A stretch of DNA of 40,258 nucleotides from an uncultured Bacilli bacterium (lineage in GTDB: Bacteria > Bacillota_I > Bacilli_A > RF39 > UBA660), in assembly GCA_944358415.1 (NCBI GenBank), contig CALVRA010000012.1, positions 1-40,258 on the forward strand, read 5' to 3'. The notes under the pieces are model-generated. The model saw only the letters and a list, made by a program, of their open reading frames with translations, searched no databases and was not told the DNA's origin. Shown here in pieces: positions 1,563 through 38,359 of the stretch (the stretch's first letter is position 1; each line of letters starts with the position of its first letter). The translations under genes and the position numbers were made by a program.

Positions 1563-3140
1563 ATGTTAGACACATTCATTACATCTTTTAAATTAAAAAA
1601 CACTTACCGTGTTAATAGTGTCATTTATTCTATTAAACAATTGCCAATTATAAGAAAAATACTAAAAGATAGTTTATATAAAAATAAAGCTTTAAAAATA
1701 ATTGGTAATATAATCAGTATACTTATGGAGATAGGCAGTATATTCTTAGGTAAACTCTTATATATTTTCTTTTGTATCACATCCATGTTACCAGTTTTTA
1801 AATTAGAAAGTGCAAATACATTTATTCATATATTTTTATTTCTAACTATTATTGGTGGCATCATGAACACCTATATGTTTAACCCTACAAAAGATAAATA
1901 CTATGCCATGATAATCATGAATATGGATGCTAAAAAATATACTATTTCCAACTATATTTATGCCATGATAAAAACATTTATTGGTTTCATGCCATTTACT
2001 ATAATCTTTGGACTATTATCTAAAATACCACTATATATATGTATAATTATGCCTATTTTTGTCGTCATGGTCAAAATGATTTTCAGTGCCTACGTTTTAA
2101 TAGACTATAAAAAAACTAAAATAGCTAAAAATGAAAATAAATTAGAAAAATTTACTTGGATAGTAATCTTCATCTTACTTTTACTTGCTTATGGACTTCC
2201 TTATATAGGTATAGTCATTAATCAAACTTTTTTCCTAATCTGTTTTATCATTAGTTTAATTTTAGGTATTTTATCTATCAAAATAATAAACTCATTTGAT
2301 AAATATAAACAAATATATAAACAAATTTTAACAAATGAAAACGTTTATGCTACAGAAAATGCGAAAAGTAACCAAACAATTAAAGAAAATGCCTCTAAAC
2401 AAATAGAGCTAGATAAATCATTCACAAGTAATAAACATGGTTTTGCCTATTTTCACGAACTATTTGTCAAAAGACATAGTAAAATATTAACCAAAGCTGT
2501 CAAAAAACAGTCTATGGTCATAATTGGTATTTTTGCCATTTTAACTACCATAGTTTTAAAAAACAAAGATATTGCTAAAAGAGTAAATGATTTATTATTA
2601 ATATATTTACCATACTTTGTTTTTGTAATGTACATGTTAAATAGAGGTACTACTGTAACGCAGGCCATGTTTATGAACTGCGACCATAGTATGCTTACAT
2701 ACCGTATATATAGAACTCCAAAAGTTATTTTAGGCGTATTTAAAGAAAGACTAAAAACATTAATATTAATAAACTTAATTCCTGCTATTTTAATTGGAGC
2801 AGGATTAACACTTCTTTTATATATATCAGGAGGAACGGTAGAAAGTCTAAACTATATTATCTTATTTGTTTCAATTATAGCTATGAGTATATTTTTCTCA
2901 GTTCATTATTTAGTCATGTATTATCTATTACAGCCCTATAATGTAAATACGGAAATGAAAAGTAGTACTTATTCAGTAGTTCAAGGTTTAACTTATTTTG
3001 TATGTTATTTCTTCATTGGTGAAAAACTTCCAACATTCTATTTTGGCCTAGCTACTATCATTTTTAGTATAGTATATTCTTTAGTATCTTTAATTTTAGT
3101 TTATAAAAAAGCACCTAAAACCTTTAAATTAAGAGTGTAA
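1563..3140 (+). CDS. ABC transporter permease (multi-pass membrane protein)
   Basis: A 525-residue protein dominated by hydrophobic helices, with roughly ten to twelve membrane segments. They fall in an N-terminal group (about residues 55-245) and a C-terminal group (about 315-515), separated by a polar loop at about 245-310. It begins one base after the ATPase stop, has only a weak ribosome site, and so probably depends on coupled translation. ogt starts one base after its own stop. I recognise no specific permease subfamily, so substrate and direction are unknown. Function as the membrane half of the ABC transporter rests on topology and on the adjacent ATPase. Confidence 0.8.
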   Translation: MLDTFITSFKLKNTYRVNSVIYSIKQLPIIRKILKDSLYKNKALKIIGNIISILMEIGSIFLGKLLYIFFCITSMLPVFKLESANTFIHIFLFLTIIGGIMNTYMFNPTKDKYYAMIIMNMDAKKYTISNYIYAMIKTFIGFMPFTIIFGLLSKIPLYICIIMPIFVVMVKMIFSAYVLIDYKKTKIAKNENKLEKFTWIVIFILLLLAYGLPYIGIVINQTFFLICFIISLILGILSIKIINSFDKYKQIYKQILTNENVYATENAKSNQTIKENASKQIELDKSFTSNKHGFAYFHELFVKRHSKILTKAVKKQSMVIIGIFAILTTIVLKNKDIAKRVNDLLLIYLPYFVFVMYMLNRGTTVTQAMFMNCDHSMLTYRIYRTPKVILGVFKERLKTLILINLIPAILIGAGLTLLLYISGGTVESLNYIILFVSIIAMSIFFSVHYLVMYYLLQPYNVNTEMKSSTYSVVQGLTYFVCYFFIGEKLPTFYFGLATIIFSIVYSLVSLILVYKKAPKTFKLRV

Positions 3141-4699: not shown

Positions 4700-6244
4700 T
4701 TATTTTTTTAAGGTATAAAATAATCTTAATATTTTAGATTTAATCTTAGAACTACTAATAGGTGTTGATTCAATAATCTGAGAGCTATTATTATCTATTT
4801 GACTTTGTAAAGTTTCTAAATAATTAGGCACATTACTTCTTTCAACTAATTCACCTTGCAAAAGTTTTTCTAATTTTTCTTTATGCAACAAATCATCAAT
4901 ACCTTGCTGGTTAAATAAATAATAAGACAACTCAAAATATATTTTTTCATCAATAGAATCTAAAGACATTTTAGAAATTAAATTCATATCATATTCATGA
5001 TTGATACTTTTTAGGCTATATTCATTACAAGCTTTTTTTAACAATAAATTGCGAATTTCATCAATAGTTGTTTGACTTATAGTAATCGCATCTTCCTTAT
5101 GATGTTCGCTAAATAAAGACATTTCGTTTGACATTAATCTATACAAATCCATAAAAATAGCCTTATTCGTAACACTTTGCAATAATTCTAAATCAAAATT
5201 TTTATATGGACTGTTTATAAAAATAGGATTCATCAAAAGAGAGACAAAGTACATAACTAACTCATCATCAATTTCATTTATTCTAATTAAATTTTTTAAA
5301 TAATGGGTATCATTTCTTCCAGCAATGCTATTTATATCTGAAATATAATATATATTATTCATATCAAATTTATAATTTCTTAAAAAGTCAGCATCATTTA
5401 AATATTTTTCACTTGGATTCACCATATAATAATATAAAGCTATTGCTGTTACTTTACTTTTTGCATTCAATAATGCTTCTACTTCTTTACGATAATATTT
5501 GCCATTAACAAAATTAGGGTCAGTCATAATAAAATATAAAAATTTATTAGCGATAGGATTTGTTGCTAATATTTGCATATTCTCAGAATGATATTTATCT
5601 GCTAAAGATACTTCATTAATTGCCAAATTATTTAAACCATGTTTCGAAGCAAAATGAGTCATGTCTAGACAGTCACTACCTGCTGTAGTTATTAATTTCA
5701 TATCCTCGCGATGATATGGACTTTTAATAGAATTAATATTAGCAGCAACAGATGCAATCGCCTCAGATACCACAAAATCTAGTGGATTATTATCCTTAGT
5801 ATCATGTGTTTCAACAAGTAATTTTAAATCTTCATTATGATAGGGACTATTTATAAAATTGTCGTCCCCTAATATCCATAATCCATATCTTGCAGTTTCT
5901 GCTTTGCTTAACATTTCTATATCTTTATAAAAATTTTTACTTTCTAAAAAATTTGGACTGCAAATAGCCTTGAACAAATGCCAACATCCATCACCATTTT
6001 TTAAGCTTGATATGGCATTAACCCTTTGTTTGTAATCTTGACAGTTTAATAAATTTTCATTAATTAATAAATATCTTAAGTTTCTTATCTCTTCTAAATC
6101 TATATTTAAACTCAGGAAATTGTTTATTTGAGTATTATTTAAATTTAATACCCATTTTTTAAATTCTTCAGCATCAGAAAATAATTCTGCTAATTCATAT
6201 TTCTTAATTTGTTCAATGACTTGTTTTAATATTTCGTTTTCCAA
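4700..6244 (-). CDS. Repeat-containing protein of unknown function
   Basis: A 514-residue, probably cytoplasmic protein (no signal peptide or membrane helix). A short motif recurs with the consensus '[NK]SPYHxEDLKLL'. Clear copies are at about residues 132-143, 174-185 and 344-355, with weaker ones near 101-112, 215-226, 247-258, 378-389 and 413-424. Early copies are about 30-42 residues apart with helical sequence between, as in a solenoid of helical repeats. The start is TTG (CAA at 6242-6244 on the plus strand), with a GAGGTGG site a few bases upstream and its own promoter. It is transcribed alone between two terminators. I do not recognise a characterised family; a protein-protein interaction scaffold is the most that can be inferred. 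Confidence 0.8.
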   Translation of the reverse strand: MENEILKQVIEQIKKYELAELFSDAEEFKKWVLNLNNTQINNFLSLNIDLEEIRNLRYLLINENLLNCQDYKQRVNAISSLKNGDGCWHLFKAICSPNFLESKNFYKDIEMLSKAETARYGLWILGDDNFINSPYHNEDLKLLVETHDTKDNNPLDFVVSEAIASVAANINSIKSPYHREDMKLITTAGSDCLDMTHFASKHGLNNLAINEVSLADKYHSENMQILATNPIANKFLYFIMTDPNFVNGKYYRKEVEALLNAKSKVTAIALYYYMVNPSEKYLNDADFLRNYKFDMNNIYYISDINSIAGRNDTHYLKNLIRINEIDDELVMYFVSLLMNPIFINSPYKNFDLELLQSVTNKAIFMDLYRLMSNEMSLFSEHHKEDAITISQTTIDEIRNLLLKKACNEYSLKSINHEYDMNLISKMSLDSIDEKIYFELSYYLFNQQGIDDLLHKEKLEKLLQGELVERSNVPNYLETLQSQIDNNSSQIIESTPISSSKIKSKILRLFYTLKK

Positions 6245-6865: not shown

Positions 6866-6877
6866 GCTACGCTTTTT
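6849..6877. terminator. Bidirectional terminator overlapping a stop codon
   Basis: AAAGCGTAGC (6849-6858) pairs with GCTACGCTTT (6866-6875), with a 7-base loop. T runs lie on both strands. The plus-strand stop codon (6863-6865) is in the loop, and the convergent minus gene ends at 6876. Confidence 0.85.
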
Positions 6878-8414
6878 AAATATCTAAATTTTCTATATCA
6901 TTTGAAACATTGACTTGATTATTAAAATTTTGTCCCATCAAATTATTTTCATTTAAATTGATATTATTTGAAAAATTATTAGTATTATCATTTGTAGGAA
7001 CACTATTCATATTCACTGTATTTTGAAAATTATTCGTAGGAATATTCATTGTCATATTTTGATTAACAGTTGGATTTTCAAATCCACTAGCTGGTGTAAC
7101 TATATTTTGACCTGCAAGCTCTTCACGCACACCCATATATTCTCCAGATTTTTGTTCTCTGGCCGCAATTGCTTCTTTAGTTTCAATAATGGCTTCAGAT
7201 AAAGAACTATTTGAACTGATCTTGTCATCATCTTCAAGTTCAATTAATTTCAAAATTTCTTCAAAAGTAGTGTAACCTTTAATAACTTTTTCTAAACCAT
7301 CCTCAAGCATTGTAATAACATCAGATCCACCATAAACTAATTTCCTAATTTCTTCTTTCGAACGGTTATTACTCAAAGCATCACGTATTTGCTGATTAAT
7401 TCTTAAAACCTCATGAATTGCAATTCTTCCTTTATAACCATCGTGGCATTCTTCACATCCTTCTGCATCATAAATTTCCTCAATATCCTTATTAAGCACA
7501 CTTTTAAATACCATTTTTTCATATTCACTAGTTTTCCTAAGCCTCTTACACTTTGGACATAATTGCCTAGCTAACTTTTGTGAAATAACCCCTTCCAAAG
7601 CTGAAGCTAATAAATATTTTTGAACATCCATATCGATTAATCTTTCGATAGTATTAAGTGATGTATTAGTATGCAAAGTAGAAAACACCAAATGACCTGT
7701 AATTGAAGCTCTAACTGCAATTTTTGCTGTCTCTGTATCTCTAATCTCTCCAATCATTATAATATTTGGATCTTGTCTTAAAATACTTCTAAGCGCACTC
7801 GCAAAAGTAAGACCAATTTTAGGATTAGTCTGAACCTGGTTAATTCCTGTAATATCCATCTCTATCGGATCTTCAACTGTAATAATATTAGTAGATGAAG
7901 TATTAAGTTGCTGAAGCATTGAATAAACTGTCGTACTTTTACCACTACCAGTAGCTCCAGTAACTAAAATAATTCCATTAGGAACCCCAAGCATCTCTAA
8001 TACCTTTTTATAATTTTCCTCACTAAACCCAAGCTCACCCAAACCAGCCATACTACGTGTATAATCTAAAATACGAATAACGATTTTTTCACCTGTACTA
8101 ACCGGCAAAGAAGAAACACGTAAATCCAAATCAATTCCTTCTAAAGTTTCCTTAATCGCTCCATCTTGTGGTAATCTTGATTCTGTAATATTCATCTTAG
8201 AAATAGTCTTAACGCGGGTTGTCAAATAATCTCGGTAGTCATCAGGAACCGTCGCATAATCCATCAAAACCCCATCTATTCTAATTCTAATAAGCAAATG
8301 GTCTTCATAAGGATCAAAATGAATATCACTTGCTCCTCTTTTAGTAGAATCAACTAAAATATCATTTATAATATCCGCAATTGGTACTTTCGCAAAATCA
8401 AAAGTTCTTATCAT
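6876..8414 (-). CDS. PilB/GspE-type type IV pilus or type II secretion assembly ATPase
   Basis: A 512-residue hexameric ATPase of the GspE/PilB family, which powers pseudopilus or pilus extension at the cytoplasmic face. It opens directly at the DIHFDPYED/RIRIDG region, so it lacks the usual N-terminal MshEN/GspE-N domain. Walker A GATGSGKS is at 153-160, Walker B IIMIGEIRD at 218-226 and the His box HLVFSTLHTN at 241-250. The zinc tetracysteine is C286/C289 and C320/C323. Residues from about 395 form an unusual tail, strongly Asn-rich from about 440, that normal family members lack. No pilin, PilC or prepilin peptidase is adjacent, so it is an orphan ATPase here. An AGGAGC site lies 8 bases before the start, and a plausible promoter is upstream. 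It ends at a shared terminator. Confidence 0.93.
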   Translation of the reverse strand: MIRTFDFAKVPIADIINDILVDSTKRGASDIHFDPYEDHLLIRIRIDGVLMDYATVPDDYRDYLTTRVKTISKMNITESRLPQDGAIKETLEGIDLDLRVSSLPVSTGEKIVIRILDYTRSMAGLGELGFSEENYKKVLEMLGVPNGIILVTGATGSGKSTTVYSMLQQLNTSSTNIITVEDPIEMDITGINQVQTNPKIGLTFASALRSILRQDPNIIMIGEIRDTETAKIAVRASITGHLVFSTLHTNTSLNTIERLIDMDVQKYLLASALEGVISQKLARQLCPKCKRLRKTSEYEKMVFKSVLNKDIEEIYDAEGCEECHDGYKGRIAIHEVLRINQQIRDALSNNRSKEEIRKLVYGGSDVITMLEDGLEKVIKGYTTFEEILKLIELEDDDKISSNSSLSEAIIETKEAIAAREQKSGEYMGVREELAGQNIVTPASGFENPTVNQNMTMNIPTNNFQNTVNMNSVPTNDNTNNFSNNINLNENNLMGQNFNNQVNVSNDIENLDI

Positions 8415-13371: not shown

Positions 13372-13728
13372 ATGAATAAAAAGGGGCAAGCATTAGTAGA
13401 ATTCATACTTATATTACCAGTTTTGCTATTAATATTAATGGCTATGATAGATATTGGTAATATTTTTTTGAAAAAATATGAACTAGAAAATAGTTTAGAA
13501 ACAGTCACTGAACTTTATCAAAATAGCGATGCAAATAATCTAGGTGTTTTTCTAGCTAAAGAAAACCTTACCTTAGACGATAAAACATTAAATGGTATGA
13601 CCACTTTAACCTTAAAACAAACCGTCCAAATAAATGCCCCACTATTAAATAATGTTCTAGGTAAAAACTATGAAATAACCACATCTAAAACATTCTATGA
13701 AAATCTAGGAGGCCTAGAAGGTGAATAA
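13372..13728 (+). CDS. TadE-like pseudopilin (first copy)
   Basis: A 118-residue protein with a class III-like prepilin N-terminus: short basic leader MNKKG, then QALVEFILILPVLLLILMAMIDIGN as the hydrophobic stalk. A prepilin peptidase would be expected to cut after G5, leaving Glu at mature position 5, the residue conserved in pilins. The rest is a short extracytoplasmic domain. TadE-family proteins are minor components needed for Tad/Flp pilus assembly. It is the first gene of the operon, with GGAAAG upstream, and overlaps the next gene by 8 bases. Confidence 0.85.
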   Translation: MNKKGQALVEFILILPVLLLILMAMIDIGNIFLKKYELENSLETVTELYQNSDANNLGVFLAKENLTLDDKTLNGMTTLTLKQTVQINAPLLNNVLGKNYEITTSKTFYENLGGLEGE

Positions 13729-14074
13729 CAAAGGACAGTCATTAATAATATTCGTTTTAATATTACCAGTTCTATTACTATTAATCACTTTAGTATTTGA
13801 AATTGGAAATCTAAATTATAGTGTAAATAAATATAAAAAAGAAATTAAAAGAACCATTGAATATGGTTTAAATAACATAGAAAAAGACAATTTAGAAGAA
13901 ATATTAACCAATCTTTTAAAATCTAATATCAAAGGACAAATCAATATTGAAATAAATAATCAAAAAATAAAAATAAATGTCAAAGATAAAATTTTATTTA
14001 AAAATAAGTTTGATATAAATATTACCTATATTGGTTATAAAGAAAATAATAAAATAATCATAAAACAAGAATAG
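13721..14074 (+). CDS. TadE-like pseudopilin (second copy)
   Basis: A 117-residue paralogue-like protein with the same layout: MNNKG leader, then a hydrophobic stalk 'QSLIIFVLILPVLLLLITL' and a short, Lys/Ile/Asn-rich outer domain. It starts with GTG at 13721, 8 bases inside the preceding gene, with an AGGAGG site at 13707-13712. The Glu expected at mature position 5 is Ile here. In pilin families that Glu is important for assembly, so this subunit may play a different role, such as initiator or TadF-like partner. That inference would need comparison with related loci. Confidence 0.8.
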   Translation: MNNKGQSLIIFVLILPVLLLLITLVFEIGNLNYSVNKYKKEIKRTIEYGLNNIEKDNLEEILTNLLKSNIKGQINIEINNQKIKINVKDKILFKNKFDINITYIGYKENNKIIIKQE

Positions 14075-14084
14075 AGGGATAAAC

Positions 14085-14825
14085 ATGGCCATAAAACAAG
14101 CAAAAGTAATCACTGTAACATCAGTCAAAGGTGGAACTGGAAAAAGTACTACCACGCTCGCCCTTGCTGGCATTCTTTCTAATAAAAAAATAAAAACGAT
14201 CATCATTGATATGGACCTTCAAGCCGGCGTCATAGCCGCCTCATTAAATCTAAAAAATCAAAAAGATTTATATACCTTAGTTAACGATTACATGAATCAT
14301 AGTCTAAAAGACATTGATAATTATATTACAAAATATAACGATTATATTGATGTCCTTCCAGCCCCTAAAGATCCAAGAAGTGTTGGAAAAATAAATTCTC
14401 AATATATTGATATAATTCTAAAAAAACTAAAATATAAATATGATTGTATCTTAATTGATACCAATCATGTTATCGATAACATAAACTTAAAAACATTCGA
14501 TAATAGTGACGAAATAATATATATTATCACAAGTGACCTCATGGATTTAAAAAACATGAAAACCATGCTTGCTATTTATAAAGACATGAATGTTACCAAA
14601 TATACCATTGTTTTAAACGAAGCCCTTTCTAAAAATCATTTAAGTACTTATGAAATAAAAACATTTTTAGATAAAGAAGTAAGCTTTATCCTTCCAGCAA
14701 CTTCTTATACTAAAAATGTCAAAAAAATGATTATGGAAGGAAAAATCATCACCTTAGAAAAAAACATAAAAAAAGACAAAACTGCAATAATTTTAACTAA
14801 ATTATTAGATAAATTACTAAAATAA
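14085..14825 (+). CDS. TadZ/CpaE-like ParA-family ATPase
   Basis: A 246-residue MinD/ParA-type ATPase with the deviant Walker A KGGTGKST at residues 15-22 and the DMDLQAG motif that follows it. In Tad systems TadZ/CpaE positions the assembly machine at the cell pole or membrane. Canonical TadZ/CpaE carries an N-terminal receiver-like domain; this protein starts almost directly at the ATPase domain, so it is a minimal form. It lies between the pseudopilins and TadA, 10 bases after the former and 12 before the latter, and belongs to the pilus operon. The AGAGGG site precedes ATG. Confidence 0.85.
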   Translation: MAIKQAKVITVTSVKGGTGKSTTTLALAGILSNKKIKTIIIDMDLQAGVIAASLNLKNQKDLYTLVNDYMNHSLKDIDNYITKYNDYIDVLPAPKDPRSVGKINSQYIDIILKKLKYKYDCILIDTNHVIDNINLKTFDNSDEIIYIITSDLMDLKNMKTMLAIYKDMNVTKYTIVLNEALSKNHLSTYEIKTFLDKEVSFILPATSYTKNVKKMIMEGKIITLEKNIKKDKTAIILTKLLDKLLK

Positions 14826-20977: not shown

Positions 20978-21577
20978 ATGAATCAAAATATTGAAATACA
21001 AATACCAACCTTAGAATATTTAGAAAATTTTAATTTAATAAAAAGCAAACAAACTGTAAATTTATTAAAAAATTATGATGAATATTGGATTAATAAACCT
21101 TCTTCTTTTAATAATAGTTTTTACTCAAAAATAAATCATATAGGTCAAATAGACACTAGTAAAATAACATCATATTGTGGTGTAAGGCCAATCATAACAA
21201 GTCCAAATTTAGAAAAAATCATCTTGAATAACAAAATAACTAAAAACATCAACACAATCGAATTTGGTTTATGGTATACACCAATAAATAAATCAGTAAA
21301 AAACAAATTAACCATTGAATATAATCAAAATACTAAATCATGGTCTCTCGCTAACACCAATCAATATCAAATAGCGCCCATAACTTGGTATTATAATGAA
21401 ATAGAAAATTTGCTACTGTCACAGAAAATACTATTTTATTCACCAATCCTTTTCAAACAAAACTTTAGTTTTCAAGGTGATTTTCAAAAAACAGACTTAT
21501 ATGCTATATTAAATAGTAGTTTTATCAAAGAAAAATTAACTACTCAAGCACCAAAAATTTATTCTTTACATATTTAA
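20978..21577 (+). CDS. Possible DUF6273-like protein
   Basis: A 199-residue protein without signal peptide, 11 bases after the preceding gene with an AGGAGG site. The stretch 'YWINKPSSFNNSFYSKINHIGQIDTSKITSYCGVRPIITSPNLEK' resembles the DUF6273 pattern (YWLRSPG...GVRPAL), usually found in Bacillota surface proteins. The GVRPII segment is the best evidence. The function of that domain is not established. I see no catalytic motif, and the family call is from memory of the motif only. It is the last gene of the tcdA-like run; no convincing terminator follows. Confidence 0.65.
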   Translation: MNQNIEIQIPTLEYLENFNLIKSKQTVNLLKNYDEYWINKPSSFNNSFYSKINHIGQIDTSKITSYCGVRPIITSPNLEKIILNNKITKNINTIEFGLWYTPINKSVKNKLTIEYNQNTKSWSLANTNQYQIAPITWYYNEIENLLLSQKILFYSPILFKQNFSFQGDFQKTDLYAILNSSFIKEKLTTQAPKIYSLHI

Positions 21578-28500: not shown

Positions 28501-29202
28501 ACCCCAGTATTTGATGGCGCAACCAGAAACGAAATCATTAAAGCCTTAGAAGAAGCTGGCTTAGATAAAGATGGTAAAATGTGGTTATATGATGGCAGAA
28601 CTGGCGAAAGATTCGATAATAGAATTAGTGTCGGTGTCATGTACATGATTAAACTAGACCACATGGTTGATGATAAATTGCACGCAAGATCTACCGGCCC
28701 ATATTCATTAGTTACCCAACAACCTTTAGGTGGTAAAGCACAGTTTGGTGGACAACGTTTCGGTGAAATGGAAGTTTGGGCTCTATACGCTTATGGTGCT
28801 GCTCATATCTTACAAGAAATGATGACTGTAAAATCAGACGATGTAATTGGCCGTGTTAAAGTATATGAAGCCTTAGTCAAAGGTGAAGACTTGCCAAAAC
28901 CTAGTGTGCCAGAAAGTTTCAGAGTAGTCATTAAAGAATTCCAAGCTCTAGGATTAGACATAACTGTTTTGGATAAAGACGGAAAATTCGTTGAGCTTAA
29001 AGAATTAGAAGAAGCTGAAAAAGATTCGTTTGTATCAGAAAGCGATTTAGAAAGTGAAATTCTAAAAGATAAAGCTGAAGCCGAAGCAAAACATATAGTT
29101 CCTAGCGAACTTGAAAATGAATTAGATGAATTTGAAGACAGCGCAGAAGAACAAGAACCAACAGATGAAGAATTAAAAAACTTGGAAGGGGAGGATAATT
29201 AA
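25585..29202 (+). CDS. rpoB: DNA-directed RNA polymerase subunit beta
   Basis: A 1205-residue beta subunit, which forms one pincer and part of the catalytic centre. The rifampicin region reads '[31 protein letters not shown]': residues equivalent to E. coli D516, H526 and S531 are all the sensitive type, so the enzyme should bind rifampicin, unlike many mollicute enzymes. '[10 protein letters not shown]' and '[23 protein letters not shown]' mark the catalytic core. I choose TTG 25585 after TAGGGGTG (the frame opens at GTG 25576, inside the ribosome site). An acidic Glu-rich tail ends the protein. Its stop shares a base with the rpoC start. Confidence 0.97.
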
Positions 29203-32200
29203 TGGATGCAAATAGTTTTGAAGGAATAAGAATTGCCATTGCCTCACCAGAAAAAATACGTTCATGGTCTTATGGCGAAGTAAAAAAAGCCGAAACCATG
29301 AATTATAGAACATTAAAACCAGAACGTGATGGACTATTTTGTGAAAAAATATTCGGACCAACTAAGGACTTTGAATGTTCATGTGGAAAATATAAAAGAT
29401 TAAGATATAAAAATATCATCTGTGACCGTTGTGGCGTCGAGGTTACTAAATCAAAAGTTAGACGTGAACGTATGGGACATATTGAACTAGCTACCCCAGT
29501 ATCACACATTTGGTTTTTCAAAGGTGTACCTTCAAGAATGGGACTAGTTCTTGACATGTCACCAAGAGAGCTAGAAGAAGTTTTATATTTCGTTTCTTAT
29601 GTAGTTTTAGATAAAGGCGACACCCCACTTGAAAAGAAACAGACTATTAGTGATAAAGAATATCGAAGCTACTATGAAAAATATGGAAACACCTTTAGAG
29701 TTGGTATGGGTGCTGAAGCAATTCAGGAATTATTAAAAGAAGTTGACTTAGAAAAAGAAGTAAACGAAATAAAAAAAGAAATCGCTGAAATAAAAGATAC
29801 ATCTAGCCAAAAACGTATTAGATTAATCAAAAGATTAGATGTCTTAGATGCTTTCTTAGAATCAGGAAATCGCCCTGAGTGGATGATTTTAACTGCTTTA
29901 CCAGTAATTCCACCTGAGCTTAGACCAATGATTCAATTGGATGGTGGTAGATTTGCGACATCTGATTTAAATGATTTATATAGACGTGTTATTAATCGTA
30001 ATAATAGATTAAAAAAATTAATTGATTTAGGAGCTCCTTCAATTATCATTCAAAATGAAAAAAGAATGTTACAAGAAGCTGTTGATGCTTTATTCGATAA
30101 TGGAAGACGTGGCAAAAATATCACTGGACCTGGTAATAGACCATTAAAATCATTATCAAGTATGCTAAAAGGAAAACAAGGACGTTTTCGTCAAAACTTA
30201 CTTGGTAAACGTGTTGACTATTCTGGACGTTCAGTTATCGTTGTAGGACCATCACTTAAAATGTATGAGTGTGGTATTCCAAAAGAAATGGCTCTAGAAC
30301 TATTCAAACCTCACGTAATAAGTGGTTTAGTATCTAAAGAAATTGCCAGCAATATCAAAGCCGCAAAACGTATGATTGAAAATCAAGACGAACGTGTATG
30401 GGATATTGTTGAAGAAAAAATCAAGGAACACCCTGTTCTTCTTAACCGTGCTCCAACCTTACATAGACTTGGTATCCAAGCTTTCGAGCCAAAACTAATC
30501 GAAGGTAAGGCAATAAGACTTCACCCATTAGTATGTCCAGCCTTCAATGCTGACTTTGACGGTGACCAAATGGCTGTTCACGTACCAATCAGTGAAGAAG
30601 CTCAAGCTGAAGCAAGACTACTAATGTTAGGCGCAAATAACATCTTATCTCCAAAAGATGGCTCACCAATCGCAACTCCGGGACAAGATATGGTTTTAGG
30701 TAACTATTATCTAACCATGGAAAAAGCTGGCCTAGAAGGTGAAGGTAGAGTCTTCAGAAATTCAGATGATGTTATTATGGCCTATGAAAGAAGAGAAATT
30801 ACTCTTCACACAAGAATTGCTTTACCGGTAAAATCATTCAGACATAAAATCTTCCCAGATAAATATATGGATAAATATTTAGTAACTACTCCAGGAAAAA
30901 TCATATTCAATGAAGTTTTCCCAGATACTTTCCAATATATCAATGATAGTAGTGTGGATAATGCAGTTAAATGCACCCCAGCTAAATACTTCATTGATAA
31001 AGGCAAAAACATCAAGGAAGAAATAGAAAAAATGCCTTTAGTTAAAGCTTTAAATAAAGGCGCAATTGTCAGATTAATTGCTCAAATCTATAAACGCTAT
31101 CATACAACTGAAACCTCAGTTATGCTTGATGCTATCAAAGATTTAGGATTTAAATATTCAACTTTATCTGGTATTAGTATCTCAATTGACGATATTAAAG
31201 AAAGTCCAATTAAAGGAGATATCATTAACGAAGCTAACAAAAAGATTGAGACAATTACTAAACAGTTTAAACGTGGTTTAATTACAGATAAAGAAAGATA
31301 TGACAATGTTATTCAAACTTGGTTTGATGCCAAAGCTAAAATCTATGATGATTTAGATAAAAGATTAAAAGCTAATCCAGAATCTTCAATTACTATGATG
31401 ATTGACTCAAAAGCCCGTGGTTCTATCGACCAGTATGGACAAATGGCTGGTATGAGAGGTATCATGAGTAAACCAAACGGTGACTACGTTGAAATTCCAA
31501 TTTTATCATCTTTATCTGAAGGTGTTACCGTATCAGAATTCTTTACATCTACTCACGGAACTCGTAAAGGTGCTGTAGACACAGCCTTAAAAACAGCAGA
31601 TGCTGGATACTTAACAAGAAGATTAGTCGACGTTGTTCAAGATGTCATCGTTAAAGAAGACGACTGTGGTACTGATCAAGGTGTAGTAGTAGAAGCATTC
31701 TATAATACTGATGGTACATTAATAGAATCATTAGAAGATAGAATTATTGGTAGATATACTAATAAAAAAATATTACATCCAGAAACCAAAGAAGTATTAT
31801 TCGATAAAGATACATACATCACTGAACAAATTGCTGAAAAAATTGTTAAAGCCGGAATTACAAAAGTTCCAATTAGAAGTGTTTTAACATGTAAAACAGA
31901 CCATGGTGTTTGCCGTAAATGTTATGGACGAAACTTAGCTACTGGTTCAGAAGTTGAACTTGGTGAAGCTGTTGGTATCATGGCTGCTCAGTCAATTGGT
32001 GAACCAGGTACACAGTTAACCATGAGAAACTTCAACACAGGTGGAGTTGCCGGTGGAGACGATATCACCCAAGGTCTGCCTCGTGTTACCGAAATTTTTG
32101 AAGCTAGAAACCCTAAAGGTAAAGCCACTATTTCAGAAATTAATGGTGTAGTATCTAAAATTGAAGAAGATAATGGCATATATAAAATTTATATTAAAAA

Positions 32201-32837
32201 CGATGTTGAAACTCGTGAACACACCTCTAATTACGGTGCCAAATTAGCTGTAGAAAAAGGTGAAGAAGTTAAAGCTGGATGGAGACTTACTCATGGTGCT
32301 ATTTCACCAAAAGAGTTGTTAGTTGTCACTGACCCTATAACTGTTCAAGAATATATATTATTTGAAATTCAAAAAGTATATCGTTCTCAAGGTGTTGACA
32401 TTTCCGATAAACACGTGGAAATTATGGCTAGAAGAATGATTTCTAAAATTAGAATTATTGACTCAGGAGATTCATTATTCTTACCAGGAACTATGGTGAA
32501 TATTAATAAATTTACTGAAGAAAACAAAAAATTAATCCTTGAAGGTAAACGACCTTCAACCGGAAAACCTGTATTACTTGGTATTACTAAAGCTTCCCTT
32601 GAAACAGAAAGTTTCCTATCAGCTGCATCATTCCAAGAAACAACCAGAATCTTAACTGACGCTGCTGTTCATGGAAAAGTAGACCACCTAACAGGTTTAA
32701 AAGAAAACGTTATTATTGGTAAATTAATCCCAGCCGGAACTGGTGCCAGAGAATATCGTGAAGCTGAATACTCTTTAGAAAACGAAATCTTAAATGAAGA
32801 GCCTTTAGAAGCTCTAGAACAAGAACTAATGGATTAG
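29202..32837 (+). CDS. rpoC: DNA-directed RNA polymerase subunit beta'
   Basis: A 1211-residue beta' subunit that carries the active-site magnesium loop '[14 protein letters not shown]'. The N-terminal zinc ribbon is '[23 protein letters not shown]' (about residues 60-82). The second zinc site '[15 protein letters not shown]' is near 895-910, and the bridge/trigger region '[28 protein letters not shown]' follows. ATG shares one base with the rpoB stop (TAATG), so the subunits are made in a coupled way. A strong terminator ends the operon, whereas in many Bacillota rpsL-rpsG-fusA would follow. Confidence 0.98.
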
Positions 32838-32848
32838 TTCTTGTTTTC
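32818..32848 (+). terminator. Intrinsic terminator of rpoBC
   Basis: ACAAGAACTAAT (32819-32830) is complementary to ATTAGTTCTTGT (32833-32844), giving an 11-12 base stem, followed by T-rich sequence. The rpoC stop codon (32835-32837) lies inside the hairpin. Confidence 0.85.
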
Positions 32849-32858
32849 TTATTACTTA

Positions 32859-32887
32859 TTTACACTAACCACTGTTTATGCTATATT
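32859..32887 (+). promoter_or_regulatory. Promoter of the metalloprotease operon
   Basis: TTTACA (32859-32864), 17-base spacer, and TATATT (32882-32887) preceded by TGc (extended -10). It supports the TTG start at 32908 over an ATG at 32878 that overlaps the promoter. Confidence 0.7.
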
Positions 32888-32907: not shown

Positions 32908-33162
32908 TTGTCTAATATTTTATATATAGAACTTATCATTAATAATAAGCATTATCATATTACTGATAATAATAAAATTGATTACATTGCTAGAATCATA
33001 AGAAATTGGCCTTTAAAAAGTTTTTCAAATCGTATACTAGATGGGGAAGAATATTTGATAAAAGTCGTAACAAATAATAAAGAAACAAATTACATAGGTA
33101 AAGGAAAATATCCAAAAGGATATATAACTTTAAAAAAAATAATAGGTGATAACAATGATTGA
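32908..33162 (+). CDS. Small protein of unknown function
   Basis: An 84-residue protein starting at TTG 32908, 5 bases after GAGGTG. It begins 'SNILYIELIINNKHYHIT', has alternating hydrophobic residues suggesting a beta-rich fold, and a later 'DGEEYLIKVVTNNKETNYIGKGKYPKGYI'. I recognise no family. Its end overlaps the next gene by 8 bases (stop TGA), so it is probably made with the putative metalloprotease, perhaps as a partner or inhibitor. No membrane or export signal. Confidence 0.65.
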   Translation: MSNILYIELIINNKHYHITDNNKIDYIARIIRNWPLKSFSNRILDGEEYLIKVVTNNKETNYIGKGKYPKGYITLKKIIGDNND

Positions 33163-34921
33163 GTATTTAGAAAGAAGATTAAGCCCTGAAAAAACAATTC
33201 AAAATTATTTGCCTAAAATAATCCAAACATTTATTGAATATTATGGCGAAGAAAATAAAGATAATATCATAAATAAATTTCAAAATATTTTTTTAATATG
33301 TACACAAACGCCTAGTGGCTTAAAAAATAATTTATTTCATTTAAAACAAACATATGGTCAAGAATTAATAAAAATATTTTTTCAAAACATAAATTTTGAC
33401 TATAATACAGAAAATGTTCAAAAATTTTTTGGTACTGAAAAGTTAATCCTTGAAAATCCCACACTTACTCCCATAGGTAAACTCTTCACAATAATCAATA
33501 ATGAACAAGTGCCCACACATCTCAAAAATTCATTCTTAAAAGATATAAAACCACTTATCACTTTGTTCTATCCACAACATGAAAATTTAGAAACCATTAT
33601 AAAAACTAACAATTTGGAAAAATTATCTAAAATATATGCACCTTACCAAGAGCTTTTACAATCTTATAATAATTTTAAATCAAAATTGACACCATATTAT
33701 CATTATATCGCACAGTGTAAAAAACTAAAAAAACAGCTAAAACAAAAATACACCTTAGAATTAATTGAAATCTTCAAAGATTATTTTAATGAAGAAGAAA
33801 TCCAAACATTTAAAGAAAAAGGATATTTAAGTGGTAAACTCGCCCTCTATCTTGGTGATAGTCTAGATGTACCATCTAAAATAGAAGCTTTCAGCACTGA
33901 AAGCCAAAAACTTATTGAAAATCCAAACGCAGAGCCCTGGCAAGTAAATTCAATTATTGAAGACAGAATCACGTTCTTTCGTAATATGGGAATAAATTTA
34001 GACAATGTATATCAAAATTATCAAAATAACCCAGAATGTCAAGCCATAATGCCAAATAAAGAACTTGTTAAAAATATTCGTGACGCAAAAGAAGAATTGG
34101 AAACAAAAATGTATAATGAATATTTTACATCAATTTCTAAATATCAAAAAACAAGAGAAAAAATAGATAATTTAAATCTTTGTGTAAAAGACGATGGTTA
34201 TAATGCTGGAACATTCATGTATAATGCGACTTATATAACCCCAAACGCTAAAGAAGAAAATGGGATATTCAAACCATTCTCATTAATAAATATTAACTTT
34301 GATATTATTGATGAATTTATTGACCAAAGAATCATTCATGAATTTAATCACGCCTATGAACTATCATTAAAAAAAGTAGATGAAAAAGAAATAAATTATA
34401 CATGCGGCTGGGAAAACTTCTTTGAAACATTAAATCCAAATAGCAATTTATGGCCATTATATGAAAATAAAACTAAAAGGACATATGAATCATTTAATGA
34501 AATAATTAATGAAATAATTGCACAAGAAATAACTGAAAAAATGCATAAAAATGGAGTATATATCTTTTATCCTCAAAATCAAGCTAAAATTAAAAATGGT
34601 ACAAGTTATGAAAGCACAAGATTTTTAGTCCAAACATTTTATGATATATTTAAAGAAGAAATTATAAAAAGTAGAAATGGAAATATTGAATATCTCTTTA
34701 ATGCCTGTGGACAAGAAAACTTTGATAGTTTAAATGAATTATTTCACGAATTTATACAAAGTTGGCCTGGATCAAATGCCACAAAATTATTTCATGATAT
34801 AGAAAACAATATTGACAATGAAGATACCCAAAAATTTAAAGAAATTATCAGAAAACGCAATAAAATATTAGAAAATATGTTAAAATACAAAATAGAAGTA
34901 AATCATAAAAAAACAAAATAG
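33155..34921 (+). CDS. Putative zinc metalloprotease (HExxH), uncharacterised family
   Basis: A 588-residue protein starting at ATG 33155 after AATAGGTGAT; an in-frame GTG at 33146 is part of that site. The striking feature is 'RIIHEFNHAYELSL', an HExxH zinc-binding motif with H395, E396 and H399. About 50 residues later comes 'YESFNEIINEIIAQEITEKM', whose E449 or E453 could be the third ligand in a gluzincin arrangement. Most of the first 330 residues look helical. There is no signal peptide, so it would act in the cytoplasm unless exported otherwise. I recognise no named family. The motif alone can occur by chance, but its position in a hydrophobic helix, followed by an Asn-Glu helix, makes the protease call reasonable. 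Confidence 0.7.
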   Translation: MIEYLERRLSPEKTIQNYLPKIIQTFIEYYGEENKDNIINKFQNIFLICTQTPSGLKNNLFHLKQTYGQELIKIFFQNINFDYNTENVQKFFGTEKLILENPTLTPIGKLFTIINNEQVPTHLKNSFLKDIKPLITLFYPQHENLETIIKTNNLEKLSKIYAPYQELLQSYNNFKSKLTPYYHYIAQCKKLKKQLKQKYTLELIEIFKDYFNEEEIQTFKEKGYLSGKLALYLGDSLDVPSKIEAFSTESQKLIENPNAEPWQVNSIIEDRITFFRNMGINLDNVYQNYQNNPECQAIMPNKELVKNIRDAKEELETKMYNEYFTSISKYQKTREKIDNLNLCVKDDGYNAGTFMYNATYITPNAKEENGIFKPFSLININFDIIDEFIDQRIIHEFNHAYELSLKKVDEKEINYTCGWENFFETLNPNSNLWPLYENKTKRTYESFNEIINEIIAQEITEKMHKNGVYIFYPQNQAKIKNGTSYESTRFLVQTFYDIFKEEIIKSRNGNIEYLFNACGQENFDSLNELFHEFIQSWPGSNATKLFHDIENNIDNEDTQKFKEIIRKRNKILENMLKYKIEVNHKKTK

Positions 34922-34937
34922 TAAAGGAGAAAATAAC

Positions 34938-35285
34938 ATGAAAAACGAATTCACAAATGTATTTGAACAAAATAAAGACCAAAACATTGAATTAAATGAC
35001 GAAGAAACAAAAGGGGAATATGCCATTGTAATGTTAAAAAATCATAACTATATCTTAAAAATAAAAGACTATAACCCATATACAAAAGATAAAGTAATTT
35101 TAACATTATTAGATGATACACTTTTAACAATTCATTGGAGTAACGTCATTATCTTTTCAAAACCTTCCAACATTATCAGTAGTATTTTAGAATCCGAAGA
35201 AGAATCATTTTATGAGCCTTCCTCTACTAAACATGGTAAAATATTAATGAAAAAAATAAATAAAGAAAACCCATTCAAAGGTTAA
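34938..35285 (+). CDS. Protein of unknown function
   Basis: A 115-residue acidic protein with AAAGGAG upstream, 16 bases after the metalloprotease gene. The centre ('GEYAIVMLKNHNYILKIKDYNPYTKDKVILTLLDDTLLTIHWSNVIIFSK', about 26-75) is beta-rich, with flexible, charged ends. No family recognised and no export signal. Co-transcription with the two preceding genes suggests a common process. Confidence 0.65.
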   Translation: MKNEFTNVFEQNKDQNIELNDEETKGEYAIVMLKNHNYILKIKDYNPYTKDKVILTLLDDTLLTIHWSNVIIFSKPSNIISSILESEEESFYEPSSTKHGKILMKKINKENPFKG

Positions 35286-35419: not shown

Positions 35420-38359
35420 ATGTATTTAAAAACATTAAAAGCGCATGGATTTAAATCCTTTGCTGATAAAACAATTTTAGAATTTACAAATGGTATAAAT
35501 GGCGTTGTGGGACCAAATGGCTCTGGAAAAAGTAATATAGTAGACGCCATTAGATGGGTTTTAGGCGAACAATCAGTTAAATCCTTAAGAGGCGCCGAAA
35601 CCATGAGTGATGTCATTTTCTCAGGTAGTAAATCGAGAAATCCAATGAACATTGCATCAGTTTCTCTAACCTTTGATAATACTGATAAATATTTTCCTTT
35701 AGATTATGACGAAGTCGAAATCAAAAGAAGAGTTTATAAAGATGGAAGCAACGAATACTACTTAAATAACGAAAAAGTTAGATTAAAAGATTTAACCAAC
35801 CTTCTTTTAGATAGTGGTATTGCTAAAGAAAGTTTCAATATTATATCTCAAGGCAAAATTGAAAGTATAATATCAAGTAAGCCTGTTGATAGAAGAGTAA
35901 TATTTGAAGAAGCTTCTGGAGTTTTAAAATATAAAAGAAGAAAAGAAGATGCCTTAAAAAAACTAACCAAAACAAACGATAATAAAAAAAGGATAAATGA
36001 CATCATTATAGAATTAGAATCTAGAGTAAAACCCCTAGAAGAAGCTAAAAACAAAGCCATTGAATACACTAATTTAAAAAACAAACTAGAAAATCTTGAA
36101 ATAGCCTTAATCACCGAAGATATCACTAATATAAACTTTGATTATCACACATCAAAAGATAAAATAGACACGCTAAACACAGAAGTTCTAAACCTAATGA
36201 CTAAAGGTAATCAAAATGAAGCACAAATAGAAAAATTCAAAACAAATATTTCATCATTAGATGACCAAATAAAAATCATGCAAAATAAAGTTATTGAATT
36301 AACAACTTTATCAGAAAGATTAAATAGTCAAAAAAATATAATCAAAGAAAGGCAAAACAATAAAGTAGAAGATACTAAATTACACCAAAATATACTAAAC
36401 TTAAAAGAAGAACAACTACTAATTCAAAATAATATTGGTAATTTAAATAATGTATTAAAATTCTTAAACCAAGAAATCAATCAAATAAAAGAAAAAATAG
36501 CCAATGAAGAAACTGAAAAAGATCGAGTTAAACAATCTAAAAATAGTTTAGAACAAAGATTAACTAATTTAATTAGAGAAAAAAATAATCTCGAATTTAA
36601 ATGTGAAAATCTTAAAGAAAGTATAGAAAACGGCGGAGCTTTACCACTTCCTGTAAAAAGTGTTTTAAATAACCCTAAATTAAGAGGTATCGAAAACGTT
36701 TTAGGTAACATCATCGAAACTGACGAAAGTTACACCTTAGCCATTACTACTGCTTTAGGTTATAATACTAATAATATTATTACAGAAGATGAAAAATCTG
36801 CTAAAGAAGCCATCAAATATTTAAAAAGCATTGGAAGAGCTACTTTTTTTCCATTAAACGTAATTAAACCTAAATATATTGATAATGAAACCTTAAATAA
36901 ATTAAAACAAAATGAAAATTTCATAGATGTTGCCAGCAACCTAGTAAAATATGACCTTAAATACAAAAATATAATTTTAAATCAATTAGGAAATATTGTT
37001 ATTGCAAAAGACATAGATTCCGCCACATACCTAAGTAAATTAATTAATAACCGCTATCGCATAGTCACATTAGATGGTGAAATTATTCATGTTGGTGGAT
37101 CTATGACAGGTGGAAAACAAAATAAAATAAGAAATATCATATCTGATAAATACGAACTAGAAAATAATCTAAAACAAATGAAAAACCTTTTATCAAAAAT
37201 AAAAGAATTTGAAAATGAAATAAATGAAATCGACTATAACCTAAAAGCCAAAGAAGATAAAATATATCTTTTAAATAAAGAAAAAATGTTAAAAGAAGAA
37301 GAAGATAAAACAAAAAAACAAATATTAGAAGAGCAAAGTCAAAAACTAAAACAAATAACCTTCGATATCAAAAGTAATAATAAACTTCTAGAAGGTGGTC
37401 TATCAAGCGAAGAAGAAGAAATACTAAATAAATATTATGCCGCCTTAAAAACAAAAAGCGAAGCTCAAATAGAGCTAGAAAACCTAACTAAAGAAAAACA
37501 AAACTTAAACGAAACCTTAGAAGACTATGAAGCATCACTAAAAAAAGAAAACACCTTATATACAGCTAAAACAAATGAACTAAAAGACTTAGAAATTAAA
37601 TCAAGTAGATTAGAAGTCAAATTAGATAACCTTTTAAATTCATTAACTGAAAATTATAGTATGACCTATGAAAAAGCCAAAGAAAATTATAAATTAGAAA
37701 TTCCATTTGATAAAGCAAAAATAGAAGTCAGTAAATTAAAAAAACAAATTAAAGATTTAGGTCTTGTAAACTTAACCGCCCCAGAAGAATATGAAGAAGT
37801 AAGTTCAAGATATACCTTCTTAAAAAAACAAATCGACGATCTAACTGAAGCTGAAAATACCTTACTTCAAATCATCGAAGAAATGGATAAAGTTATGATT
37901 AACGAATTCAAAGATACCTTTAAACTAATAAACGACAACTTCCAAATAACCTTTAAAGAATTATTTAAAGGAGGACATGCCGAATTAAAATTAACTGAGC
38001 CCAATAATATCTTAGAAACTGGCATTGATATTATTGCCTCTCCTCCAGGTAAAAAATTAACCAGTATTACTTTACTATCTGGTGGTGAAAAAACACTTAC
38101 CGCAATAAGCTTATTGTTTGCTATTATCAAATCAAAACCATCCCCATTTTGCGTATTAGACGAAGTCGAAGCAGCCTTAGATGAAGCCAATGTTGATACA
38201 TTTGGCAAATACATTCAAAAATTAAAAGAAAAATCTGAATTTATTATTATAACCCATAAAAAAACCACCATGGAATATGCTGATATATTATATGGTATAA
38301 CTATGCAAGAATCAGGTGTTAGTAAACTTGTTAGTGTAAAATTAGAAGATATCGAATAA
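35420..38359 (+). CDS. smc: Chromosome partition protein Smc
   Basis: A 979-residue SMC ATPase that, with ScpA and ScpB, organises and helps segregate the chromosome. N-terminal head: 'GFKSFADKT' and Walker A GPNGSGKS at 31-38. A coiled coil follows from about 165 to 400. The hinge is at about 405-565, with 'GGSMTGG' at its end. The returning coil is followed by the C-terminal head with signature 'LLSGGEKTLTAISLLF' (about 883) and Walker B 'CVLDEVEAALDEANVD'. Typical Bacillota Smc is nearer 1190 residues, so both arms are short by about 100 residues; this length matches mollicute Smc. No rnc or ftsY, its common neighbours, is here. It has its own promoter. Confidence 0.97.
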   Translation: MYLKTLKAHGFKSFADKTILEFTNGINGVVGPNGSGKSNIVDAIRWVLGEQSVKSLRGAETMSDVIFSGSKSRNPMNIASVSLTFDNTDKYFPLDYDEVEIKRRVYKDGSNEYYLNNEKVRLKDLTNLLLDSGIAKESFNIISQGKIESIISSKPVDRRVIFEEASGVLKYKRRKEDALKKLTKTNDNKKRINDIIIELESRVKPLEEAKNKAIEYTNLKNKLENLEIALITEDITNINFDYHTSKDKIDTLNTEVLNLMTKGNQNEAQIEKFKTNISSLDDQIKIMQNKVIELTTLSERLNSQKNIIKERQNNKVEDTKLHQNILNLKEEQLLIQNNIGNLNNVLKFLNQEINQIKEKIANEETEKDRVKQSKNSLEQRLTNLIREKNNLEFKCENLKESIENGGALPLPVKSVLNNPKLRGIENVLGNIIETDESYTLAITTALGYNTNNIITEDEKSAKEAIKYLKSIGRATFFPLNVIKPKYIDNETLNKLKQNENFIDVASNLVKYDLKYKNIILNQLGNIVIAKDIDSATYLSKLINNRYRIVTLDGEIIHVGGSMTGGKQNKIRNIISDKYELENNLKQMKNLLSKIKEFENEINEIDYNLKAKEDKIYLLNKEKMLKEEEDKTKKQILEEQSQKLKQITFDIKSNNKLLEGGLSSEEEEILNKYYAALKTKSEAQIELENLTKEKQNLNETLEDYEASLKKENTLYTAKTNELKDLEIKSSRLEVKLDNLLNSLTENYSMTYEKAKENYKLEIPFDKAKIEVSKLKKQIKDLGLVNLTAPEEYEEVSSRYTFLKKQIDDLTEAENTLLQIIEEMDKVMINEFKDTFKLINDNFQITFKELFKGGHAELKLTEPNNILETGIDIIASPPGKKLTSITLLSGGEKTLTAISLLFAIIKSKPSPFCVLDEVEAALDEANVDTFGKYIQKLKEKSEFIIITHKKTTMEYADILYGITMQESGVSKLVSVKLEDIE

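Follow-up and report, generated by a model that had tools for sequence, protein, structure and literature searches.

What might a large protein with an HExxH motif do between rpoC and smc in an uncultured gut Bacilli genome, and do the two small genes beside it belong to the same unit? The window, by which we mean the whole stretch of 40,258 nucleotides that was analysed, carries the following features at this site. The first-pass annotation had placed the open reading frames correctly and had also numbered H395, E396, H399, E449 and E453 of the 588-aa product correctly.

29202-32837, + strand: rpoC, named from its own sequence
32816-32847, + strand: intrinsic terminator of rpoC, spanning the rpoC stop codon, 14 pairs plus a T tail
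32859-32887, + strand: promoter-like site with an extended -10 (TTTACA, 17 nt, TG, TATATT), a consensus match only
32908-33162, + strand: small partner gene, 84 aa, from the ORF list and upstream homologues
33155-34921, + strand: putative protease gene, 588 aa, from the ORF list, alignments and model
34337-34351, + strand: HEFNH motif, residues 395-399 of the 588-aa protein, invariant in alignments A3 and A5
34499-34501, + strand: E449, putative third zinc ligand by conservation, in helix 445-465
34938-35285, + strand: gene for an acidic protein of 115 aa, a resident of the rpoC-smc site
35420-38359: smc, named from its own sequence, followed by an ABC-F gene named likewise
588-aa protein, predicted domain plan: N-terminal helices with FxxYYG and a strand; insertion, residues ~53-340; catalytic part with HEFNH and E449; C-terminal helices

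The rpoC terminator folds better than chance (-14.4 kcal/mol, z -4.4). The extended -10 promoter that had been proposed to drive the genes behind it is present as a site, but it matches the consensus in a scan whose overall match count was no higher than in shuffles. The 84-aa gene begins with TTG and is preceded by a ribosome site, AGAGGTGA; a 94-aa version of the same gene starting from ATG at 32878 would read through the -10 box. The 84-aa and 588-aa frames share 8 nt, and the 588-aa and 115-aa genes are separated by 16 nt. None of the three proteins contains a hydrophobic segment (maximum 19-residue Kyte-Doolittle means of 0.19, 0.96 and 1.25 for the 84-, 588- and 115-aa proteins).

The 588-aa protein had no meaningful match in Pfam, NCBIfam, PADLOC, PHROGs or the PDB sequences, and it was rightly called unrecognised in that it falls outside every family library searched. 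One match to a designed protein in a sequence search (2e-5) was put down to helical similarity to the insertion. Direct genome searches found homologues in 17 of the 44 genomes of the window's genus, some of them as fragments; at greater divergence they turned up in 55 of the 288 genomes sampled from the order. Beyond the window's own taxonomic family, no match in the class and phylum samples was convincing, the sole row there (E 9.6e-4) containing five stops; viral, phage and plasmid collections yielded no relative, and a profile search of the window's own genome recovered the window copy and no further paralogue. Those relatives that bear a name are Bacilli assembled from metagenomes, some of them from the gut of sheep, rabbit (“Lapin”) or other sources, and they probably belong to the RF39-type gut Bacilli. 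The protein family is large and very divergent, and in the samples searched all its convincing members come from a single taxonomic family of gut Bacilli. Because intact homologues are present in many genomes and dN/dS between pairs of them is 0.20-0.51, the gene is more than a chance open reading frame. Several loci show the family in other states: three copies in a row (L123:559-5626), two copies with one small gene between them (L059:9206-13125), a copy broken by a stop (G003), and a short remnant at a contig end (L010:5-1001) beside a gene that by eye resembles an IS30-type transposase.

The residues that would make this protein an enzyme are its best conserved part. H395, E396, H399 and E449 are among the invariant columns of alignment A3, which has 26 long members, and they are the only ones in alignment A5, where 42 members reaching down to ~250 residues have a mean column identity of 16% and Y30 is nearly invariant. 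Since A5 left out motif-less members by selection, the fairest motif count comes from a wider set of 74 distinct alignable homologues, of which 71 carry HExxH; E449 is present in all 71 of these distinct HExxH-bearing rows. Homologues without the motif, named in the first-pass annotation as what would speak against an enzyme, amount to the remaining three: L072 and L138, which have also lost E449, and L074, which retains it. This check thus did not overturn the enzyme reading. The same annotation had suggested a possible gluzincin with E449 or E453 as third ligand, and E449 emerges as the conserved acid, whereas E453 varies (mostly E, D or Q). The distance from H399 to E449 is 33-53 residues in long members. 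Because the conservation of HExxH and E449 is coupled, as a third zinc ligand predicts, the alignments support a gluzincin with E449 in this role, and we consider it likely, with good confidence, that the 588-aa protein binds zinc and cleaves proteins.

An AlphaFold2 model of the 588-aa protein (pLDDT 90.6, pTM 0.87) places HExxH within a predicted helix at 389-402 and E449 within the helix listed above. Between the N-terminal and catalytic parts lies the helical insertion, whose length and sequence vary among members, and short relatives of 263-335 residues retain only the N-terminal ~50 residues and the part from ~345. We read these two parts as one unit, because the short relatives keep nothing else and because zincin matches span residues 1 to ~510. 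Foldseek found no match for the model in the PDB at E up to 0.001 and nothing significant among viral models. In a second structural alignment, zincins made up four of the seven best rows (2o36, 1j7n, 4put and 4ka7), extending over model residues 1-514 with 140-166 residues aligned; thimet oligopeptidase reached Z 6.3, anthrax lethal factor 6.1, Arabidopsis TOP2 5.9 and an organellar oligopeptidase 5.3, values that, being under 8, may reflect a common arrangement and leave room for families outside the aligner's list. The helical-bundle rows covered mostly the C-terminal helices only. The model's matches to zincins are weak.

The 84-aa protein is predicted to fold as two strands, a helix, two strands and a helix (pLDDT 86.3). 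A profile search of the 700 bases upstream found a homologue directly ahead of 18 of the 28 long-form proteases (three of the 18 are near-identical, and a further long member lies at the very start of its contig, which leaves no upstream sequence to search). Strand is the same in every case, and the two frames usually overlap. In the genus, all six strong matches to the small profile adjoin a protease gene; in the order-wide sample the strongest do so too, and the weaker ones include the same domain within larger, unrelated proteins. Its dN/dS is 0.12-0.44. Motif conservation and pairing together uphold the earlier picture of a putative cytosolic HExxH enzyme with a small co-encoded partner. 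The small gene is absent before intact proteases in L038, L040, L048, L050, L056 and L057, and in the first two of these the protease stands directly behind rpoC. Since several genomes have an intact protease and no small gene, the latter is not an obligatory antidote. At L055:4538-5224, a gene for an SprT-like metalloprotease lies directly upstream of the protease and overlaps it in place of the small partner.

What kind of protein the partner may be is indicated by fold and domain comparisons. Foldseek gave no match for its model in the PDB at E up to 0.001. The top structural matches, at Z about 5, are unrelated folds such as the thioesterase-like 4q0y and Mago nashi, and weaker ones are to protease inhibitors, namely the subtilisin inhibitor SSI (Z 3.4) and emfourin (Z 2.5, 63 residues, rmsd 5.5). 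None of 17 small proteins matched Emfourin PF20242 of Pfam at E up to 1, and an emfourin search of 149 genomes returned no members. A search of 149 genomes for DUF6438 likewise returned none, but it was uninformative in that control genomes were also blank. The small-partner domain recurs inside larger DUF6438-like proteins (L105, L107 and L112); L107 and L112 each seem to contain it twice, and L112 also has a hydrophobic segment at its N terminus. L112, found with the small-protein profile, matches DUF6438 (PF20033) at E 1.2e-5, with 26/30 bits just below threshold, and the small proteins themselves have no significant match to it (best E 0.12 in one scan, 0.11 for L104 in another). The small protein may thus be a distant stand-alone relative of DUF6438, the link running through the larger proteins only. 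No gene fusing small protein and protease was found, and L105, L107 and L112 lack HExxH. From the gene arrangement and the weak fold similarity, we rate the chance that the small protein inhibits or otherwise regulates the protease at just short of even.

The pair does not follow the history of its surroundings. Between the window and L039, RpoC is 98% and SMC 88% identical, and the protease and small protein fall to 44% and 45%; against L035 and L036, SMC is 80% and 77% identical, the protease 59% and 57%, and the small protein 70% and 64%. In the SMC tree the window joins L039 (100/100), and the grouping seen for the protease is rejected (AU p 2e-36); in the protease tree the window joins L035 and L036 (100/99), and there a pairing with L039 is rejected (AU p 0.0021). 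This conflict is more simply read as exchange of the protease module between species at one and the same site, although hidden paralogy could fit too. The module is often absent from close relatives, and degraded remnants of it persist in G013, G027 and G031. Protease and small gene form a fast-evolving, patchily distributed pair that is swapped between species.

What computation shows is a family in which HExxH and E449 are coupled and a small gene is paired with the protease; the two are under purifying selection, occur patchily and have moved between species. The reading that we build on this, and to which we give about an even chance, is a two-gene unit of a cytosolic gluzincin-type endopeptidase and a small co-translated regulator or inhibitor. 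The small protein would be translated just ahead of the protease from overlapping frames and would bind it, holding it inactive or directing it. The protease would depend on zinc, and the large variable helical insertion would interrupt its catalytic part; its partner would regulate it most likely through inhibition. We suggest, more tentatively, that the unit serves not in housekeeping but in conflict, be it phage defence, competition or proteolysis triggered by stress, a role that is possible but short of probable. The first-pass annotation had spoken of a regulatory or defence-type unit; the patchy, exchanged and fast-evolving pattern fits such a role, but it is no proof, and no defence family was matched, with neither the window's three proteins nor related long and small members hitting a PADLOC model. 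Bolder still, and rather unlikely in our judgement, would be a lineage-restricted, rapidly diversifying superfamily of cytosolic metalloproteases which, with its cognate small inhibitors, constitutes an undescribed proteolytic conflict system (for phage defence or competition) of gut Bacilli with reduced genomes, its modules being swapped between species at fixed sites on the chromosome.

Among the alternatives, a toxin-antitoxin-like or abortive defence module, with a protease that is lethal once released and the small protein as its antidote, would account for the strict adjacency and overlap with the small gene first, the patchy distribution and its degraded remnants, the exchange between species and the fast divergence (44-59% identity vs 97-98% for RpoC). 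In type II toxin-antitoxin systems, however, the toxin gene always comes with the antitoxin gene, whereas here intact proteases lack the small gene in at least six genomes, L038 and L040 among them. There was also no PADLOC match, no relative in the phage, plasmid and viral collections, and no defence island in the neighbourhoods examined, and we regard such a module as unlikely.

The persistence of members which have intact active sites and no small gene would agree with a dedicated processing peptidase that acts on a single cellular substrate or a few, its small partner being a substrate adaptor or itself the substrate, and the insertion varies in length and sequence as expected of a part that recognizes substrates. 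A single conserved substrate, however, predicts slower evolution and vertical inheritance, and the module is instead exchanged and often absent. This too seems improbable, and the regulated two-gene endopeptidase remains the reading that we prefer.

The first-pass annotation had counted the third gene in, proposing a three-gene operon and a functional complex of all three products. The 115-aa protein has no match in Pfam or NCBIfam. Its homologues stand at the rpoC-smc site without the protease pair in L077, L079, L082, L083 and L085, beside a remnant of the pair in L078 and L081, and beside an intact or interrupted protease in L037, L038 and L039; protease units elsewhere in the genomes have no 115-aa gene. 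At related rpoC-smc sites the homologue is mostly accompanied by a further gene of 74-83 aa. Because the 115-aa homologues persist without the pair, we take the window's operon to be a resident gene plus an exchangeable pair. As an evolutionary unit the operon therefore shrinks to two genes, and the 115-aa gene is a neighbour, probably co-transcribed in the window, and not a component of the protease unit. The short gaps and the one promoter in the window would suit a complex of three, but at least five genomes that lack the pair have a homologue at this site, and units elsewhere lack the gene, and we consider such a complex very unlikely. Equally hard to credit is a non-catalytic or decaying family whose HExxH has a purely structural role: L072, L074 and L138 have lost the motif and a stop breaks the copy in G003, but the four residues are kept in 71 of 74 alignable members despite extreme divergence and dN/dS stays at 0.20-0.51.

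The rpoC-smc site of the genus has two resident small families, one of about 101-115 aa and one of about 74-83 aa (L037:2467-3007 and L038:11662-12199), which occur with or without the protease; the window retains the first only. A 289-aa gene with no significant Pfam match follows both residents at L038:12196-13065 and L078:1014-1880. Further cargo near the protease unit at rpoC-smc (L035:5298-7383, L040:2701-3804 and L084) is variable and comprises a glycosyltransferase and a 338-367-aa protein without Pfam match. This variable cargo suggests that the rpoC-smc site is an insertion hotspot.

Among known systems, M3 peptidases (thimet oligopeptidase, TOP2) share with the 588-aa model a zincin core in a mostly helical cytosolic protein (Z 5.3-6.3 over 149-166 residues). 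In M3, however, the glutamate follows HExxH after about 25 residues, against 33-53 here, and the protein had no Pfam match to them. The M34 family (anthrax lethal factor and Pro-Pro endopeptidases) has a similarly long spacing, and the model aligns with 1j7n (Z 6.1, 140 residues, rmsd 4.0), a weak similarity of fold only; no M34 match of Pfam was found in 42 members at E up to 0.01, and the window protease has a small partner gene and neither signal peptide nor translocation parts. The closest arrangement is that of Serratia proteamaculans, in which a single operon encodes both protealysin, an intracellular metalloprotease, and its inhibitor emfourin, in the order pln-m4in, and deletion of emfourin lowers FtsZ levels (PMC9505478). 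Our pair likewise combines a putative intracellular metalloprotease with a co-encoded small protein, whose model is weakly like emfourin (Z 2.5), but the small protein has no PF20242 match, the large one has no M4 match in Pfam, the small gene comes first, and the spacing between HExxH and the glutamate is short in M4. The two arrangements may work alike, by analogy and not by homology.

The locus adds to uncultured gut bacteria a large metallopeptidase family, so far unannotated in Pfam and NCBIfam, and offers a testable pair of a small protein and a protease whose likely catalytic residues are now pinpointed. Should the small protein prove to be an inhibitor, the pair would be one more example of a cytosolic metalloprotease that a bacterium encodes together with an inhibitor of its own, and a role in conflict could be tested directly, thanks to the insertion and exchange pattern.

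Elsewhere in the window we noted a T2SSE ATPase gene of secretion or pilus type (6876-8414, - strand) and, separately, a TadE-like gene with a ParA/MinD-type ATPase gene behind it (13372-14825, + strand), which suggest pilus loci in a reduced genome. Three further frames have no Pfam match, at 4700-6244 (- strand, 514 aa), 1563-3140 (+ strand, 525 aa) and 20978-21577 (+ strand, 199 aa).
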